A DNA stretch of 39,307 bases, taken from positions 1-39,307 of the forward strand of contig JAAUSZ010000014.1 in assembly GCA_012031875.1 (NCBI GenBank). Direction: 5' to 3'. Of this stretch, positions 9,268 to 36,952 are shown in pieces. How positions within the stretch are numbered: the first letter of the stretch is position 1; every line of letters starts with the position of its first letter. The notes below the pieces were generated by a model. That model saw only the letters and a program-made list of their open reading frames with translations, was not told the DNA's origin and did no database searches. The DNA comes from Desulfobacula sp. GTDB lineage: Bacteria; Desulfobacterota; Desulfobacteria; Desulfobacterales; Desulfobacteraceae. A program made the translations under genes and the position numbers.

Positions 9268-9326
9268 TAGGTGCGTGAGTTATGCGCATTTTTAACAGTT
9301 ACCTTAATTTAAGAAGGCGGTACCCG

Positions 9327-10469
9327 ATGTTTGCAAAAAAAATGTTTAAAACCCTTATGGCTTCCATCTTCTGTCTCACGGCAGTATCTGCGGCAGAAGC
9401 CCAGTTGGCATCACCAACCCTTTATTTCAACGGATACCTGGACTATGACGCTGATGCCCGGGTCTTTTCCGTCAACGCAACCATTACCGGACTTGAGGGT
9501 GTCACCGGGTTGACCCCGGGCCAAGGGATACAGTTTTCAGACACTGCTTCATCCCTTGACATCTCCGGCGTTCAGAATACTCCTCGAATCATGCTTTCCG
9601 GCAGTCTCAGCGGTCTTTCCTGGCTCCCGGGCTCAGATTTTTCCTCATCGGCCGATATCCTGGGGCTTGCCCTGCTCAGCAGCGGTATTGTGCTTACGGA
9701 CAGCCTGCTGTCAACGGATTTTACGGCACGGATCAACGGCCGGATGGTTTCAACTTCCCCCCCGTCACCGGTCCCTGTTCCCGCGGCCTGGCTGCTCCTG
9801 GGGTCCGGCCTTGTCCTGACGGCAGGAATCAGAAAACAGGCCAAAACCTCCAAAAAGCTCTTTGCATCTCTGATCCTGGGGCTGATGCTCCTGTTGCCCA
9901 TAAACGCCATGGCCTCCCTGTTTCTGTCTCCCTATCTGGATGTCCAGACCCTGGCTTCAGATGCGGGGGTATGGTTATCCGGAGACGAACTTACACTTAC
10001 AATGGACGCCACGGCCATTGCCCTTGGGGACCCCTATGGGCCGATTGATCCGGCCGATTTCATTTTAACGGCCACAAAAATTTCCGGCAATGATTATTAT
10101 TCCGGGACCCTGTCTGTCGGACCCGGCGGATCCTTGCTCTTCGCATCGTTCACAGACCTTTCCATCACGGTATACAGTTTTGGACTTTTATCCGGTTATG
10201 ATATCTACGCTGGCCTAACCTATACCGGCGGCCTGCTGGCCCAGGGCCTCAGTTCCGGCTTCCTTTTCGGATACACCGACAGCCTGTCCCAGGGTGACCT
10301 GTTTTCCCAGATTCACGAAATAACCCCGTTGTCGACAACCCCGGTTCCCCTGCCGTCGGCGCTGGTCTTCGTCTTTTCCGGCCTGGCAGGCCTTGCCGCC
10401 CTGAAAAAAGGGCCGGCCGGCCTAATCGAATCCTTATATCCGGTTAATCCTTTCAACACATTAAAGTAG
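9327..10469 (+). CDS. Tandem (fused) PEP-CTERM protein with two sorting tails and an internal signal peptide-like segment
   Basis: SP MFAKKMFKTLMASIFCLTAVSAAEA; first tail PSPVPVPAAWLLLGSGLVLTAGIRK; internal SP-like TSKKLFASLILGLMLLLPINAMAS; second tail TTPVPLPSALVFVFSGLAGLAALKK; extreme C-terminus (after LKK) may be a frame error. Confidence 0.75.
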   Translation: MFAKKMFKTLMASIFCLTAVSAAEAQLASPTLYFNGYLDYDADARVFSVNATITGLEGVTGLTPGQGIQFSDTASSLDISGVQNTPRIMLSGSLSGLSWLPGSDFSSSADILGLALLSSGIVLTDSLLSTDFTARINGRMVSTSPPSPVPVPAAWLLLGSGLVLTAGIRKQAKTSKKLFASLILGLMLLLPINAMASLFLSPYLDVQTLASDAGVWLSGDELTLTMDATAIALGDPYGPIDPADFILTATKISGNDYYSGTLSVGPGGSLLFASFTDLSITVYSFGLLSGYDIYAGLTYTGGLLAQGLSSGFLFGYTDSLSQGDLFSQIHEITPLSTTPVPLPSALVFVFSGLAGLAALKKGPAGLIESLYPVNPFNTLK

Positions 10470-10525
10470 TAATTTAGGGGCTGGTTTTTATATCAGCCCC
10501 TTTTCTTTGTCGAGCAGAGCGGCTG
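10421..10525 (+). repeat. Intergenic repeat, copy 1 (about 105 bp, full length)
   Basis: cctaatcgaatccttatatccggttaatcctttcaacacattaaagtagtaatttaggggctggtttttatatcagccccttttctttgtcgagcagagcggctg; closely matches 14318-14422 and the left part of 13488-13563. Confidence 0.9.
10477..10508 (+). terminator. Rho-independent terminator (inside repeat copy 1)
   Basis: GGGGCTG-gtttttatat-CAGCCCC followed by TTTTCTTT. Confidence 0.8.
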
Positions 10526-10550
10526 AGAATTTTAATAACGGCCGTATTCA

Positions 10551-11651
10551 ATGAATGTTCTATTACATGATGAATCAAAACTTCGCCGCTTTATTACGGG
10601 ATATATTCTTGTCGGTTTCGGGCTGTTCCTTTTCATGTATGTAAACCAGCAGAATCTGATTTCCAGGCCCGTGAACAGCTTCACGGCCCATAGCGTCAAG
10701 GTCCTGGCCGAAATATTCAATTACCCGGCAAGTGTGGATCAGGTCACCTATACCCGGGAAAGGGGAAACGATAAAATCTTGGTGCCCACCACCCTTTTGA
10801 TGGTGGGCCGGTACAAGGCCCGGGTCATCTTGGAATGTTCCGCCGTTCACGCAGGGATTCTGCTGGTCACCTTCATTCTGGCCTATCCTGCCCCCGGGTC
10901 CCGGAAAATCTATGGGATGCTTTTTCTGGTTCCCTGCCTGGTGGCGTTCAACTCCATCCGGATTTTCATCCTGATGCTGCTGGGCCATTATTTCGGCCAG
11001 TCCAGCACCGTCTTTCATATATTCCATATCTATGTCATGCAGGTATTGATCATCGCCCTGGTTCTGGTTCTGGCCCTGGTATGGCTGCGCAGGTGCGAAC
11101 TTGGTAAGGCCGATTACCCTGTATGGTTTTTTTTGAAGTTCCTGGTCGTTTCCGCAGGGCTGGTGGTGTTGTGGTTTGGCCTGAGAAACAGGTGGGGTCC
11201 CTATTCAGAAATCATGGAGCGCTTTATTTTTCCGTTTTTGACCTTTGGCGCGCTGGTGCTGTCCGGTTCAACATTCACTCTCCGCAACAGCCGCAGGGAC
11301 ATTGTCATGGGGTTCGGGGTGATGCTCGGGTTTCTGATCCTCGGCCAGGCCGCCAGTTTCACATATGAGCATTTTCATTCTTCATCGGCAGAGCTTTTGT
11401 TTGTCATGATGAATTCAGCACTCAAATATATCCTTCCCTTTGGGTTGTTTTTTTTCCTGATACGGAAAAGCCTCTTTGTCCGGACCGACCCTTCCGGGAA
11501 ACAGGTCTTTGGCTGTCCTCTCTGCGGCAAGCAAGATATTCGGAATCTGAGAGCCCATGCCCAGGCAAGGCATAATACGGAGCTTCTACAAGAAAATGAG
11601 AGGCTTATGAGTGCCATCAAACTGATTGAAGACAGCCTGAAGGTGAAATAA
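10551..11651 (+). CDS. Exosortase/archaeosortase-family transmembrane cysteine transpeptidase with C-terminal C2H2-like segment
   Basis: Multi-TM; VILECSAVHAGILL (Cys), PCLVAFNSIRIFILMLLGH (Arg), VFHIFHIYVMQ (His) match the exosortase Cys-Arg-His arrangement; tail FGCPLCGKQDIRNLRAHAQARHNTE. Confidence 0.8.
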   Translation: MNVLLHDESKLRRFITGYILVGFGLFLFMYVNQQNLISRPVNSFTAHSVKVLAEIFNYPASVDQVTYTRERGNDKILVPTTLLMVGRYKARVILECSAVHAGILLVTFILAYPAPGSRKIYGMLFLVPCLVAFNSIRIFILMLLGHYFGQSSTVFHIFHIYVMQVLIIALVLVLALVWLRRCELGKADYPVWFFLKFLVVSAGLVVLWFGLRNRWGPYSEIMERFIFPFLTFGALVLSGSTFTLRNSRRDIVMGFGVMLGFLILGQAASFTYEHFHSSSAELLFVMMNSALKYILPFGLFFFLIRKSLFVRTDPSGKQVFGCPLCGKQDIRNLRAHAQARHNTELLQENERLMSAIKLIEDSLKVK

Positions 11652-11653
11652 CC

Positions 11654-13492
11654 ATGCTTTGTGTGCAACAAATGCTCAAGTCCTTCACCGCCCTGATTCT
11701 GTTGTTTTTTCTATTCACCGGACCCGGCATGGCCGGCTCGGATTTGCCTGTTTTTGACCCTCGCCCGAAAGACCCGTCCGGACCTGATGCTGCTAAAACC
11801 GGCCGGTATATCATTCACCTGAAAACACCTTCCGGTGAGCGTGAGCTGAAAGCCTTCGGCACCCAGGCCCTTCGAAAGGCACAGAAAGAAGCGGTCCGGA
11901 CCCTCCAGGACCGGTTCATCGAAAAAATCAGCCCGAACAAGGTCATCATCAAGCGCCGGTTTGACTATACCCGGTCCCTTGCCGTGGAAGCCTCGGCCGA
12001 AGCCGTTAAGACCCTGGAAAAAATGAATGAAGTGGATTTTGTGGAGCCGGACTATCCCTTCCAGATTCATACGGCCCAGGGCATCCCCCTGATGAATGCC
12101 CCGGCGGTCCGTTCCGTGTATGCGGGACAGGGGGTATCCATTGCCGTCCTGGACACGGGCATTGATTATACCCATGCTGCCCTGGGAGGGTCGGGATTTC
12201 CCAATGCCAAGGTCATCGGCGGATATGATTTCGGCGACGATGACGCCGATCCCATGGATACCCAGGGCCACGGCACGAGCTGCGCCGGCATTGCTGCCGG
12301 GGATGCGGCCGGAACCGGGAATTATATGGGCGGGGTGGCAAAAGACGCCCGGCTCTATGCCCTGAAGGTGACTCAGGGCAGCACCGGCACCGCCTACAAT
12401 TCAGATATTATTGGCGGCATGGAATGGTGTATCGACCATGCAGAGGATAACCCGGCCTATCCCATCAAAATCATCAGCATCAGTCTGGGCGGCGGCAAAT
12501 ACAGCACGGTCTGCGATTCGGCATTTTCATCCTTTGCCCGGACCGCAGCCATAGCCTTATCCGCCGGAATTACCCTCTTCGCCTCCTCGGGCAATGACGG
12601 ATACTGCGGCAGCCTTGCCTCTCCTGCCTGTGTCTCCCCTATTATCTCCGTTGGAGCAGTGTTTGACGCCAATATCGGCGGCGTCGGATTCTGTGTGTCC
12701 CCGGATTCCTGCGCCCCGAACCAGGGAACCCACGCATCCTGCGGCACCGACCCGGTGGCCTGGGTCTATAGCCCCGCAGCCGATATGGTGGCCCCCTATA
12801 CCAATATTGCAACCTTCCTGGACATCCTGGCGCCCAGCCATAATGCCACAGCTCCCCATGCGGGAGGGGGCTATGTCGCCGCCTTCGGCGGAACATCTGC
12901 GGCCTGCCCCTATGCCGCCGGGGCCGCCGCATGCCTCCAGAGCGCCGTCCACACCGCCCATGGCTATTTTCTAACCCCCGAACAGGTCAGGGAGGAAATG
13001 ACGGTCTCCGGCACAATGATCCAATACACCGGGACTGGTTTTTCAATGGATAAGCCCCGGATCAATCTGGGTGAAATGGACATGGATTCCGACGGGCTGC
13101 CCTCGGCCTGGGAGATTCAGTATTACGGCTCCATTGAAACACCGGTGGACACCGACACGGATGCCGACGGCCTCACGGCGCTCGAAGAATATCAGAACCA
13201 TACCGACCCCACGGATGGGGATACGGATAATGACGGCATGCCGGACGGATGGGAAGTCGCCCATGGCCTTGATCCCCTGACCCATGATGCCGACGGTGAT
13301 CCGGACGGGGACAATTACACCAATATACAAGAATATCTGGCGATGACGGACCCCGGGGAAAAGAACTCCTATCCCCTGCCGGTTCCCGCGGGCCGGCCTT
13401 TTTTAACGGGCCTGGCCTTTCTGGCCTTGGCCGGTCTCGGAATGAGAGCCATCCGGAAGGCAAAAGGCAGAACAAAGGATCGCCCAGCCTAA
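11654..13492 (+). CDS. S8 (subtilisin-like) serine peptidase with I9-like propeptide, Ca-binding-type Asp-rich repeats and C-terminal sorting tail
   Basis: AVLDTGIDYTHAALGG (Asp), GHGTSCAGIAAG (His), GGTSAACPYAAGAAA (Ser); DMDSDGLPSAWEIQYYG...DTDADGLTALEEYQNHTDPTDGDTDNDGMPDGWE; C-term YPLPVPAGRPFLTGLAFLALAGLGMRAIRKAKGR. Confidence 0.93.
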   Translation: MLCVQQMLKSFTALILLFFLFTGPGMAGSDLPVFDPRPKDPSGPDAAKTGRYIIHLKTPSGERELKAFGTQALRKAQKEAVRTLQDRFIEKISPNKVIIKRRFDYTRSLAVEASAEAVKTLEKMNEVDFVEPDYPFQIHTAQGIPLMNAPAVRSVYAGQGVSIAVLDTGIDYTHAALGGSGFPNAKVIGGYDFGDDDADPMDTQGHGTSCAGIAAGDAAGTGNYMGGVAKDARLYALKVTQGSTGTAYNSDIIGGMEWCIDHAEDNPAYPIKIISISLGGGKYSTVCDSAFSSFARTAAIALSAGITLFASSGNDGYCGSLASPACVSPIISVGAVFDANIGGVGFCVSPDSCAPNQGTHASCGTDPVAWVYSPAADMVAPYTNIATFLDILAPSHNATAPHAGGGYVAAFGGTSAACPYAAGAAACLQSAVHTAHGYFLTPEQVREEMTVSGTMIQYTGTGFSMDKPRINLGEMDMDSDGLPSAWEIQYYGSIETPVDTDTDADGLTALEEYQNHTDPTDGDTDNDGMPDGWEVAHGLDPLTHDADGDPDGDNYTNIQEYLAMTDPGEKNSYPLPVPAGRPFLTGLAFLALAGLGMRAIRKAKGRTKDRPA

Positions 13493-13563
13493 TCGAATCC
13501 TCATATCCGGTTAATCATTTCAACACATAAAAGTAATAATTCAGGAGCTGTTGTCGAAAAGCA
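13488..13563 (+). repeat. Intergenic repeat, copy 2 (terminator arm deleted)
   Basis: cctaatcgaatcctcatatccggttaatcatttcaacacataaaagtaataattcaggagctg then ttgtcgaaaag; matches copies 1 and 3 but lacks the hairpin 3' arm and poly-T. Confidence 0.85.
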
Positions 13564-13628
13564 TGGGCATGGAAGGCTTGACAAAAAGATGAAAATATCG
13601 CATTTTGATGTGTATAAGGAGGTGTATG

Positions 13629-13829
13629 ATGAGAACCAATATAGTGCTTGATGATTCCCTTGTAAATGAAGCAATATTATTAAGTGGTGTAAAAACCAAA
13701 AAAGATGTTATCTCTCTTGCATTACAGGAATTTGTTATGTCCAGAAAGCGACTCAATCTGCTTAAATTGGCCGGTAAAATTAAATTCCGGGAAGATTATG
13801 ATTACAAATCCTGCCGGGAAGGCAAATGA
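13629..13829 (+). CDS. vapB: VapB-type antitoxin
   Basis: MRTNIVLDDSLVNEAILLSGVKTKKDVISLALQEFVMSRKRLNLLKLAGKIKFREDYDYK; overlaps downstream PIN-domain toxin. Confidence 0.85.
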   Translation: MRTNIVLDDSLVNEAILLSGVKTKKDVISLALQEFVMSRKRLNLLKLAGKIKFREDYDYKSCREGK

Positions 13830-14229
13830 TTCTTGTTGACACATCGATCTTGGTAGATTTTTTTAAGGGCACTAAAAATGACCCTGTTTCCTGTTTTTTA
13901 GACATTCTCAAAAAGAAAATCCCCTTTGGAATAACATCTGTAATTTATCAGGAACTTCTTCAGGGAGCGAAAACCAAAAAAGAGTACCTGCTTTTAAATG
14001 AATATCTCAGTTGCCAACTTTTTTTCATCCCAAAGATACAGTGGCTTCTTACGAAAAGGCGGCCATGATCTATTTTGTCTGTCGAAAAAAGGGAATTACC
14101 ATTCGAAGTACAATCGATTGCCTAATCGCTCAGATAGCGATTGAACATAATTTATATCTTCTTCATAATGACAAAGATTTTGAACAGATGGCTCCTATTG
14201 TCGGGCTTGAGTTATATCCTCTTGGATGA
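13826..14229 (+). CDS. vapC: VapC-type PIN-domain toxin (one frameshift at ~14020)
   Basis: MILVDTSILVDFFKGTKND...ITSVIYQELLQGAKTKKEY; adding one T to the 7-T run continues as FFHPKDTVASYEKAAMIYFVCRKKGITIRSTIDCLIAQIAIEHNLYLLHNDKDFEQMAPIVGLELY. Confidence 0.88.
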
Positions 14230-14317: not shown

Positions 14318-14422
14318 CCTAATCTAATCCTCATATCCGGTTAATCATTTCAACATATTAAAGTAATAATTTAGGGGCTGGTTTTGATATCAGCCCCTTT
14401 TCTTTGTCGAGCAGAACGGCTG
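14318..14422 (+). repeat. Intergenic repeat, copy 3 (about 105 bp, full length)
   Basis: cctaatctaatcctcatatccggttaatcatttcaacatattaaagtaataatttaggggctggttttgatatcagccccttttctttgtcgagcagaacggctg. Confidence 0.9.
14374..14405 (+). terminator. Rho-independent terminator (inside repeat copy 3)
   Basis: GGGGCTG-gttttgatat-CAGCCCC followed by TTTTCTTT. Confidence 0.8.
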
Positions 14423-14503
14423 TGAAGCTAAGTTGCGCTCCCCACGGTAACCCATGTAACCGACAGGGCGGAGCTGTCTTTATTGCCTGAAACCGCAGCA
14501 CCT

Positions 14504-16195
14504 ATGAATTCGACCCCCCTAATAAATCTCCTGGTATCCGAAGAACGGCAGGCCCTGCTCAAAAGCCTGGCCCCAGCCATGCCGGATATCATCCTGAACG
14601 ACCGGCAGCTCTGTGATTTCGAACTCCTGGCAACGGGGGTGTTTTCACCGTTAAAAGGATTCATGAAACAGATGGATTATGAATCGGTCCTGGACCGCAT
14701 GCGCCTTGAATCCGGTGAACTCTGGCCCCTTCCCGTCTGCCTCGATATCCCGGAAAACCTGGCCTCAACCCTTGAAACGGGCCAGTCGGTCACCCTGAGG
14801 GACCCGGAAGGCTTTCTGCTGGGCATTATGGCCATCGAAGACATCTGGCCCCTGGACAGGGAAAAGGAGGCCCGGGCCGCCTATAACACCCTGGACCCGC
14901 TGCATCCGGGCGTGGACTATCTTTACAACAAATCCGGCCGGTTCTATATCGGCGGAGACATCCAGGCCTTAAGCCTTCCCATCCATTCTGATTTCAAGCA
15001 GATCCGCAACACCCCGGCCGAGGTCCGGAAAACCTTTGAGAAACTCGGCTGGAAACGCGTTGTCGGGTTCCAGACCCGCCAGCCCATCCACCGGCCCCAG
15101 TTTGAAATGACCCTCTTGGCCATGCAGCAGGCAAAGGCCAACCTGCTCCTGCTCCCCGTGGCCGGGTCACCAAACCCGGAGACTTTGACCATTTCACCCG
15201 CATGAGATGTTACCAGAAGGTCGCGGCCCATTACCCGCCGGACTCCCATGTCCTCAACCTCCTGCCCCTGGCCATGAGGATGGCGGGCCCCAGGGAGGCG
15301 GTCCTCCACATGATCATCGGGAAAAATTTCGGCTGCACCCATTTTGTCATCGGCCATGACCATGCCTCCCCCGGAAACGACAGCAAAAACAAACCCTTCT
15401 ATCCCTATGATGAGGCCACCCGCCTGGCCCAAACCGCTGCGGAAGAGCTGGGAATCGGCGTCATCACCTTTGAAGAAATGGTTTACCTCCCCTTTGAAGG
15501 CGAATACAGAATCGCCGGCGAAGCGCCAGAAGGCACCACCACCATCTCTTTTAACGGCAGTGATATCCAGAAAAGGATCAGGGCCGGAAAGAAGGTGCCG
15601 GACTGGGCCACCTTCCCGGAAGTGGTGGAAGAACTGCCGGAAATCCTGCCCCCCCGCCCCCCAAAACAGGGATTTACCGTTTTCTGCACCGGACTGTCCG
15701 GAGCCGGTAAATCCACCATTGCCAAAATCCTGTACGCCAAATTTCTGGAGCTGGGCACAAGGCCCGTATCCCTCCTGGACGGGGATATCGTCAGGCGGAA
15801 CCTGTCTTCTGAACTGAATTTTTCTAAGGAACACCGGGATATCAATGTCAAGCGCATCGGATTTGTGGCCTCGGAAATCACAAAAACCGGGGCATAGCCA
15901 TCTGCGCCCCCATTGCCCCCTATGAAAAACCAGGACCGCCATCCGCAGATCCATCGAAGCCTACGGCGGCTTTTTCGAAATCCATGTCTCCACCCCCCTT
16001 GCCGAATGTGAAAAACGGGACAGAAAAGGCATGTATGCAAAGGCCCGGGCCGGCCTCCTGAAAGGCTTCACCGGCGTGGACGACCCCTATGAAGCCCCCT
16101 CAAACCCGGAACTGAGAATCGACACCACAGCCCTGACCCCAGACGAAGCAGCCCAGGAAGTCCTGGTCCTGCTCAGCCGGAAGGGGTATATATAA
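14504..16195 (+). CDS. Bifunctional sulfate adenylyltransferase/adenylylsulfate kinase (three frameshifts: ~15170, ~15885, ~15925)
   Basis: ATP sulfurylase: GFMKQMDYESVL, VVGFQTRQPIHRPQFEM, GCTHFVIGHDHASPGNDSK; APS kinase P-loop FCTGLSGAGKSTIAKILYAKF, LLDGDIVRRNLSSELNFSKEHRDINVKRIGFVASEI; then RTAIRRSIEAYGGFFEIHVSTPLAECEKRDRKGMYAKARAGLLKGFTGVDDPYEAP. Confidence 0.92.
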
Positions 16196-16242
16196 ATTGG
16201 CCTGTTTATTGCCCCTAACCACGCTGAACCATTAATTCCCGG

Positions 16243-34359: not shown

Positions 34360-35408
34360 ATGGAAGCCTCTGTTATTACGACTTTTCGCTGCCCCATGCG
34401 GTGCAGCATGTGCGATATCTGGAACAATCCCACAGACCCTCAAAAGGAGATCACGGCCAGGGATCTTGAACGCATGCCCCTGGTGAATGTTACAAACATT
34501 ACCGGAGGCGAACCCTTGATCCGGGAGGATCTGGCCGAGCTGGTGGAGGTGATTTTCAAAAAATCCAAGCGGGTGTGCATTTCCACCAGCGGGTTCTATA
34601 CGGAACGAATTTTTTCACTGGCGGAAAGATTCCCGGCCCTGGGGTTCCGGGTGTCCCTGGAAGGGTTGTCTGAGAAAAATGATGAGCTGAGGGGACGGCC
34701 GGGGGGGTTTGACCGGGGGCTCCGGACCCTGCTGGGGCTCCGGGAAATGGGCAGAAAGGATGTGGGATTCGGGATCACGGTGTCCAATAATAATTCCAAC
34801 GATATGATCTGGCTCTATGAATTGTCCCGGCAGCTCGGAATGGAATTTGCCACGGCAGCCTTTCACAATTCATTTTATTTCCACAAGGAGGATAATAGCA
34901 TTACCAATAAGGAAGAAGTCATCGGGAATTTCCAGGTTCTCATTGAAAAGCTGCTGAAAGAGAACAAGCCCAAATCCTGGTTCCGGGCTTTTTTTAATCT
35001 CGGGCTCATCAATTATATCCGGGGCAACCGGCGGATGCTGCCCTGCGAGGCCGGAACCGAAAATTTTTTATTGACCCCTACGGCGAAATCCTGCCCTGCA
35101 ACGGCATGGAAAAAAAATACTGGTTTGAGAGTTTCGGGAATATCCGGGAAAAAAGCTTTGAAGAGGCCTGGCAGGGGCCCCAGGCCCAAAGGGTGAGGGC
35201 CTTGGTGTCCAAATGTCCGAAAAACTGCTGGATGATCGGCTCGGCCTCGCCGGTCATGAAAAAATATATCCGTCACCCTTTGAAATGGGTGATCATGAAT
35301 AAAATCAAGAGTCTGTCCGGCGGCGGGGTTAATATTAACGATATCCCCTGGTATGATGTGGGGCAAGACCCGGAACAGGGCAAATTAAGGGAGAGTGTAT
35401 CCATATGA
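34360..35408 (+). CDS. Radical SAM protein with SPASM-like C-terminus (one frameshift at ~35065)
   Basis: FRCPMRCSMCDIW (CxxxCxxC), NITGGEPLIREDL; restored C-terminus NFFIDPYGEILPCNGMEKKYWFESFGNIREKSFEEAWQG...VSKCPKNCWMIG. Confidence 0.9.
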
Positions 35409-36952
35409 AAGGTTTGAATCCTGCGGTCCAGGCTGTTATCCTGGCCCTTGCCTTTGTGGGGGCCTATTATGTGCCCTTCAGTTCCCTTTATCATACCTGG
35501 ATGACCAATGACGATTATTCCTACGGCCTGCTCATCCCCCTGATCTCCCTTTATTTTTTGTGGGAAAAGAAAAAGAGTCTGATGGCCGTCCCCATCCGGC
35601 CTTACTGGCCGGCCCTGCCGGTGCTGATCCTGTTTGTGATGGTCTCCATCTACGGCATCCTGGGGTCCAGCGGCCATATATCAAGACCGGCTCTGCCGGT
35701 TCTGATTGTTTTATTTGCCCTGTTCTGCTTTGGGTGGAATCTGTTTAAGAAAGCGGCTCTTCCCCTGTGCTTCCTGGTATTCATGATTCCATTGCCGACA
35801 GTTCTGGACAGGACCATCGGCGTTTACCTGAAAAGCATCTCGTCTGAACTGGGCGGGCTTTTTTTGAGAATTCTGGGCTATTCGGTTCATGTCAGCGGCA
35901 ATGTGATCGATCTCGGCGTGACCCAGCTTCAGGTGGTGGATGCATGCAGCGGGCTCAGGTTCTTATTTCCCCTGGTTGCCCTGGGTGTGGTGTACGGTTA
36001 TTTTTTTGAGCGGGTTTTGTGGAAACGGGTGGCCTGTGTTCTGATCACCGTACCCATTGCCATCCTGACCAATGTCCTGAGAATCGGGATTGCGGGCATC
36101 CTGACCTATAATTTCGGTTCCGGCATGGCTGAAGGCTTTTTCCACGATTTCCAGGGCTGGGCCATTTTCATGGCCTCCCTGGTTTTTCTCTTCATTTTCA
36201 GCTTGTTTTTGCGTCTTTTTTCAGCCAAGCCAAAGGATTTCCGGAAAGAGTCGGGCTTTTCAGGACTGGGCATAAAGAATAAAAACAATACCCTTGCGTT
36301 TGGTGTGTCAATGCTCCTTCTACTGGCTGTGGCCGTACTGACCTTTAATACAAAGGCCCTGCCGCCGGTGAAGATCAAAGGCGGCGTGGAAAGTTTTCCC
36401 GTCGCCTTCAGCGGATGGACCGGTAAATCAAGCCTGGTGAGCCCTGAAATCATCGAAGCATCCGGGGCTGAAGAATCATTTAATGCCGTATATCAGGATA
36501 ATGCCGGGCAGGCCATTTCCCTTTATATGGGATACCGGAGTACGGCCTTTCTGGAGAATGAGAATTTTTTTCACAGCCCCACGGTCTGCCTGCCGTCTTC
36601 GGGCTGGAAAACCATCAGCAATTCCAAATATATCATTAACGCCGTACCCGTGTTCGGCAGCCTGGCGGTAACGGAAATGGTGATGGAATCCATGGGCGAA
36701 AAACAACTGGTGTATTTCTGGTTCCAGACCAAGGACAAGGCCACCCATGACAAGAACATCAACCGGTTCCACCTGGCTTTGCATGCCATTCAAAAAGACA
36801 ATACCCATGATCTTTTCATCCGGCCCATTACCATGATTGGAAAACAGGAGTCCATTGAAATTGCAAGACAGCGGATGGATGGATTTGTAAGAGAAATGAT
36901 GGCCACCCTGGACACCTTTTTAAAGGAAAACCAGTTCGAGGAACCGGGTTAA
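35405..36952 (+). CDS. xrtD: Exosortase-EpsI fusion, XrtD (VPLPA-CTERM-specific) type
   Basis: Multi-TM N-terminus with DACSGLRFLFPLVALG, VPIAILTNVLRIGIAGI, GMAEGFFHDFQGW; C-terminal EpsI-like domain PVAFSGWTGKSS...LYMGYRSTAFLENENFFHSPTVCLPSSGWKT; exosortase+EpsI architecture. Confidence 0.85.
   Translation: MKGLNPAVQAVILALAFVGAYYVPFSSLYHTWMTNDDYSYGLLIPLISLYFLWEKKKSLMAVPIRPYWPALPVLILFVMVSIYGILGSSGHISRPALPVLIVLFALFCFGWNLFKKAALPLCFLVFMIPLPTVLDRTIGVYLKSISSELGGLFLRILGYSVHVSGNVIDLGVTQLQVVDACSGLRFLFPLVALGVVYGYFFERVLWKRVACVLITVPIAILTNVLRIGIAGILTYNFGSGMAEGFFHDFQGWAIFMASLVFLFIFSLFLRLFSAKPKDFRKESGFSGLGIKNKNNTLAFGVSMLLLLAVAVLTFNTKALPPVKIKGGVESFPVAFSGWTGKSSLVSPEIIEASGAEESFNAVYQDNAGQAISLYMGYRSTAFLENENFFHSPTVCLPSSGWKTISNSKYIINAVPVFGSLAVTEMVMESMGEKQLVYFWFQTKDKATHDKNINRFHLALHAIQKDNTHDLFIRPITMIGKQESIEIARQRMDGFVREMMATLDTFLKENQFEEPG

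Follow-up and report, generated by a model that had tools for sequence, protein, structure and literature searches.

Exosortase H (XrtH) pairs with cargo bearing an IPTLxxWG-CTERM tail. Most exosortases act on a large number of substrates, which makes them difficult to study. Dedicated sorting systems are known, namely a rhombosortase with a single GlyGly-CTERM target and a Gram-negative LPXTG cassette, and S8-type (subtilisin-like) proteases occur among GlyGly-CTERM/rhombosortase cargo (PMC3237569). For archaeosortases, a model has been proposed in which a thioester forms and is then attacked by a lipid amine (PMC7157517).

The stretch of DNA analysed here (the window; 39,307 nucleotides from Desulfobacula sp.) encodes an exosortase and, directly downstream, an S8 protease with a sorting-type tail of its own. 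We think it likely that the exosortase sorts the protease as its main substrate and that the two genes were acquired together. They probably form an accessory and largely self-contained unit, which both exports the protease it encodes and anchors it.

The exosortase and protease genes

10551-11651, forward strand: gene for a long XrtH-like exosortase (366 aa; Cys96, Arg137 and His159; about eight membrane helices)
11514-11573, forward strand: CxxC...HxxxxH zinc-finger-like stretch in the C-terminal region of the exosortase (best Pfam match zf-Di19, below cut-off)
11654-13492, forward strand: gene for a subtilisin-like protease of family S8 (612 aa, with signal peptide, I9, catalytic domain, TSP3-type repeats and tail)
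13382-13489, forward strand: tripartite C-terminal tail of the protease (VPAGRPF, then a hydrophobic helix, then the basic stretch RKAKGRTKDR; fits the [VI]P[AT]xxx[WYF] register)

The original prediction, an exosortase paired with a tailed, Ca-repeat S8 protease, was exact in lengths, coordinates, strand and the gap of 2 nt between the exosortase stop and the protease start. The tight coupling that it proposed is borne out by that gap and by a Shine-Dalgarno-like AAGGTGA within the final exosortase codons, directly upstream of the protease ATG; translation of the two is probably coupled. The prediction was right in substance and wrong on the catalytic signature and the tail motif, and its interpretation is partly supported.

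The exosortase scores above the cut-offs of the exosortase/archaeosortase signature TIGR04178 (46.3 bits against 23) and of Pfam EpsH (29.4 bits against 25.7). Among specific families it matches exosortase H (TIGR04177) best, at 58.4 bits, under the curated cut-off of 86. Cys96, Arg137 and His159 are invariant in an alignment of 13 sequences. The ECSA signature had been regarded as an oddity, a view that does not hold, since ECSA, ECTA and ECSP are the norm among XrtH-like proteins; ECSA/ECTA being normal in this branch, the signature merely separates the enzyme from EpsH-type enzymes. Surveyed XrtH proteins are mostly about 180 aa, with long forms of about 280-370 aa that have a second membrane domain, and by its sequence the window enzyme is a member of this long XrtH-like form. 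Its C terminus contains CPLCGKQDIRNLRAHAQARH (residues 322-341), followed by a long helix; the sub-cut-off match to zf-Di19 has an E-value of 0.034 here and 0.001 in locus L035, and the only relative seen to share the CxxC...HxxxxH architecture of the window enzyme is that of genome G346. An AlphaFold model (pLDDT 81.5) predicts a multi-helix membrane fold with strands preceding the active-site Cys; the model has no structural neighbour in the PDB and the sequence no solved homologue.

The enzyme is remote from its relatives, sharing 22-28% identity, 28% at best, with other long XrtH-like exosortases and lying in the tree on a very long branch that makes its placement impossible. A single-sequence scan of 85,462 genomes recovered no close relative, an alignment-based query reached 12 loci, 25 other genomes of the genus lacked the exosortase, and no plasmid-borne relatives were found. 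A 475-aa protein with an exosortase-like domain in genome G078 (L024:8924-10348) is a weak relative, at 26% identity.

The protease passes Peptidase_S8 (PF00082; 126.3 bits against a cut-off of 21.8), with matches also to the I9 propeptide and the TSP3 repeat. A signal peptide is followed by I9 (residues 51-139), the catalytic domain (158-449), Ca-binding repeats of the TSP3 type (about 474-567) and a C-terminal hydrophobic helix (582-600), and the D-H-S boxes are kept (AVLDTG at 164, GHGTS at 205, GTSAACP at 413). With a signal peptide and a motif-helix-basic tail, the protein has the anatomy of a cargo, its cleavage being predicted.

An accessory block bounded by direct repeats

9282-10469, forward strand: resident PEP-CTERM neighbour (a single frame encoding two fused preproteins, each with a tail of the type that belongs to other exosortases)
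10421-10529, forward strand: direct repeat copy 1 (marks the left edge of the block and takes in the final codons and the terminator of the resident PEP-CTERM gene)
13488-13550, forward strand: direct repeat copy 2 (truncated by loss of the terminator arm; overlaps the protease gene end, with similarity to copy 1 from 13470)
13605-13829, forward strand: VapB-type antitoxin (PF09957, 60.8 bits)
13826-14229, forward strand: VapC-type PIN toxin (divided between the frames 13826-14068 and 14011-14229 by a frameshift or a misassembly)
14318-14426, forward strand: direct repeat copy 3 (marks the right edge of the block; 93% identity to copy 1)
35405-36952: XrtD-type exosortase, about 24 kb downstream of the pair (TIGR04152, 383 bits, just under the cut-off of 400)

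The pair lies between copies of a direct repeat of about 109 nt, of which copies 1 and 3 contain an intact terminator; the repeat is confined to this contig and was found nowhere else in this genome. A close relative, G046, has flanks 86-96% identical to those of the window, syntenic through 10529 and resuming from 14316, and carries one repeat copy. It lacks the VapBC pair and lacks exosortase, protease and tail together, while retaining the flanking PEP-CTERM gene and an XrtD-type gene. Because direct repeats flank them and the same site is empty in this relative, we consider exosortase, protease and VapBC to be a single accessory block of 3.8 kb, which was probably acquired. The divergence of the repeats is about equal to that of the genomes, so that gain here and loss in G046 are not separable by age; since all 25 congeners searched lack the exosortase, gain is favoured. 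The original prediction had recognised the pair and had rightly kept it distinct from the XrtD-type gene, a separate locus, while missing its membership of a repeat-bounded block absent from a close relative.

Integron attC sites were considered as an identity for the repeats and rejected by eye, there being no paired core sites; the repeats are contig-confined and hold a resident terminator. The VapB antitoxin is intact although the VapC-type PIN toxin is split. The fused PEP-CTERM frame runs from a signal peptide and a domain to a PVPVPAAW tail, and on, through another signal peptide inside the frame and another domain, to a TPVPLPS tail, with no stop between the halves. The same fusion is present in G046 (L132:4995-6209), which makes an assembly error unlikely, and such a two-tag polyprotein is unusual. 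Beyond the block, an ATP sulfurylase/APS kinase gene (14483-16196) has frameshifts near 15200 and 15895 in this assembly; the G046 copy is intact, and contig C86 of this assembly carries another homologue, which is uninterrupted.

Recurrent linkage to S8 proteases

Among 20 distinct long XrtH-like loci inspected, the window locus included, four have an S8 neighbour detected by HMM, the others being in Geobacter sp. L1geo (where S8 gene and exosortase are 19 bp apart), Nitrospiraceae SURF_66 and Thermodesulfovibrionia DeMMO3_26. In a fifth locus the exosortase adjoins a TSP3-bearing protein (L044/L050) whose S8 fold is not provable by sequence, and which we count as S8-like only, because Pfam, hhalign, PDB search and an AlphaFold model (pLDDT 36) gave no decision. 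No S8 neighbour was seen in 20 further TIGR04177-positive loci, mostly of short XrtH and some on short contigs. S8 genes are sparse, with no more than 68 matches across about 101 Mb, so that less than 1% of 10-kb neighbourhoods would be expected to contain one. The linkage is therefore recurrent and above chance. It is not universal: S8 linkage is absent from five genomes of the family's other exosortase-bearing genus, whose exosortases adjoin a VPVPG-tailed protein instead, and several long XrtH-like exosortases adjoin non-S8 tailed proteins, which makes the protease no more than a candidate sole substrate. The predicted association with S8 proteases thus recurs in other lineages, although it fails as a general rule, being lacking in about 16 of the 20 long XrtH-like loci.

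Other features of these neighbourhoods recur too. Both Nitrospirota loci have a conserved 158-aa protein between S8 gene and exosortase (L051:7357-7830 and L053:7351-7824), ending in DYVYRY..DGCRWENDW and resembling a glycogen-binding module. In seven loci from several phyla (L019, L020, L022, L023, L051, L053 and L056) the neighbourhood comprises a PEP-CTERM protein and a PBP-like 'NVYGASAQY' protein, to which some add thioredoxin-like and outer-membrane secretion-like proteins; this common neighbourhood is possibly a conserved surface system.

The S8 or S8-like proteins adjoining long XrtH-like enzymes have tails with VPAGRPF, VPAFSGY, VPALSGY, VPACSSW and VPAFSIF, and all five fit [VI]P[AT]xxx[WYF], a pattern that was picked by inspection, after the tails had been seen. 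The same survey met IPTLSEWG-type tails next to short XrtH, and these share the register, VPAGRPF and the IPTLxxWG type matching under a relaxed pattern only. Eleven other sorting tails of this genome were compared, and not one fits it. Further substrates in this genome are possible, the search for them having covered a Pfam PEP-CTERM search, which found only other tail kinds elsewhere in the genome, and a 228-kb sample, which was uninformative. The unlinked orthologues (G346, G351 and G382) have protease tails without VPAxxx[FWY] and with no strict common motif. Having been found by inspection and being missing from unlinked orthologues, the register is no more than suggestive. Of the tail originally described, the motif-helix-basic anatomy stands, and PVPAG as its motif falls, not being kept in orthologous tails.

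Co-occurrence across the order

A single draw of 390 genomes of the order, used for both genes, contains the exosortase in 12 genomes, a close protease homologue in 14 and both in 7. Fisher's test gives 1e-8 per genome (kinship ignored), 6e-4 per genus, and 7e-6 at genus level for tailed homologues only. All five membrane-tailed homologues (G000, G026, G346, G351 and G382, the window's own included) are in exosortase carriers, and homologues in exosortase-free genomes end in dockerin-like or plain sequence. Physical linkage varies among these carriers: the tailed protease is 18 kb from the exosortase in G026, and far from it or on another contig in G346, G351 and G382. Two genomes, G023 and G029, are exceptions, carrying the exosortase with an untailed S8 homologue.

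Alternative explanations

That the protease is processed by the neighbouring exosortase is a prediction that we consider well supported, and other explanations must be weighed against it. XrtD-type and XrtW/A-like enzymes are present in this genome and VP-containing tails are their kind of cargo; the protease could be sorted by the resident XrtD-type enzyme (35405) or by a third exosortase (C275), the neighbour serving other proteins and the adjacency reflecting co-insertion only. We find this unlikely, given that the protease tail contains neither VPLPA nor VPEP and is matched by no PEP-CTERM or VPLPA model, that G046 has the XrtD-type gene yet no tailed protease, and that co-occurrence tracks the XrtH-like enzyme. 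The tail might instead be a plain C-terminal membrane anchor, or be shed by another protease, with the exosortase acting on other cargo and the linkage incidental. Such an anchor would suit the divergent tails of the unlinked orthologues, and that of G351 in particular, which ends with a single basic residue; it would not account for a linkage that recurs in independent lineages with a VPAxxx[FWY] register common to them, nor for homologues being untailed where the exosortase is absent, and it strikes us as rather unlikely.

The relationship could also be reversed, the protease acting on the exosortase system by maturing other sorted proteins or the exosortase itself. The genes are adjacent and probably co-translated, and the exosortase has an unusual C-terminal extension; the protease nonetheless bears its own sorting-type tail and a TSP3 stalk, we found no precedent for such an arrangement, and we regard this reversal as highly improbable.

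A model for the pair

In the model that we prefer, in which the exosortase sorts the adjacent protease, the protease would be exported via its signal peptide, after which its C-terminal helix would retain it in the inner membrane. The XrtH-like exosortase, using Cys96, Arg137 and His159, would cut at or near VPAGRPF to form an enzyme thioester and, by analogy with the archaeosortase model, might transfer the protease to an envelope acceptor, either a lipid or linked to exopolysaccharide. The result would be a Ca2+-stabilised protease, self-activating through its I9 propeptide, displayed at the cell surface.

A broader reading is tentative, and we would put it forward as possible and no better than that: a self-sufficient, horizontally moving 'surface protease cassette', in which an XrtH-like sub-branch, some members having zinc-finger-like tails, is repeatedly paired with Ca-stabilised S8 proteases and was inserted as one block, next to a toxin-antitoxin pair, via the repeats on either side, the whole being independent of the resident XrtD/VPLPA system. 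A two-gene unit that joins a single enzyme to a single cargo would offer a compact means of studying cleavage, transfer and the acceptor, with protease activity as the readout; close relatives live without the pair, and the unit could be moved into a laboratory host.

Comparison with known systems

Our literature searches, which covered open-licence papers, found no paper on exosortase-S8 pairs. The closest described family, exosortase H (TIGR04177), is like the window enzyme in its ECS(A/T)...N..R...H.Y residues and in the relaxed [VI]P[AT]xxx[WYF] register of its cargo, and differs in length (about 180 aa against 366 aa), in the second membrane domain and CxxC...HxxxxH tail of the window enzyme, and in the latter's score of 58 bits against a cut-off of 86. 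Several long XrtH-like exosortases likewise score just at or below that cut-off; those of Desulfobacterales, Geobacteraceae and Nitrospirota have the two-domain layout of the window enzyme, but their identity to it is low and the zinc-finger-like tail recurs in G346 only. XrtD with its VPLPA-CTERM cargo (TIGR04152) also belongs to the exosortase superfamily, but to another family, with another tail motif and an EpsI-like domain.

The dedicated rhombosortase and LPXTG systems depend on rhomboid or sortase chemistry, and so on unrelated enzymes, whereas the window pair is a candidate single-target system built on an exosortase; in all of them no more than one gene separates the sorting enzyme from its target (PMC3237569), and here the gap to the putative target is 2 nt. 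The S8 cargo of the window pair parallels the sorting of subtilisin-like proteases by GlyGly-CTERM and rhombosortase. Side-by-side pairs of dedicated enzyme and target are an established pattern, of which the pair described here is a variant.
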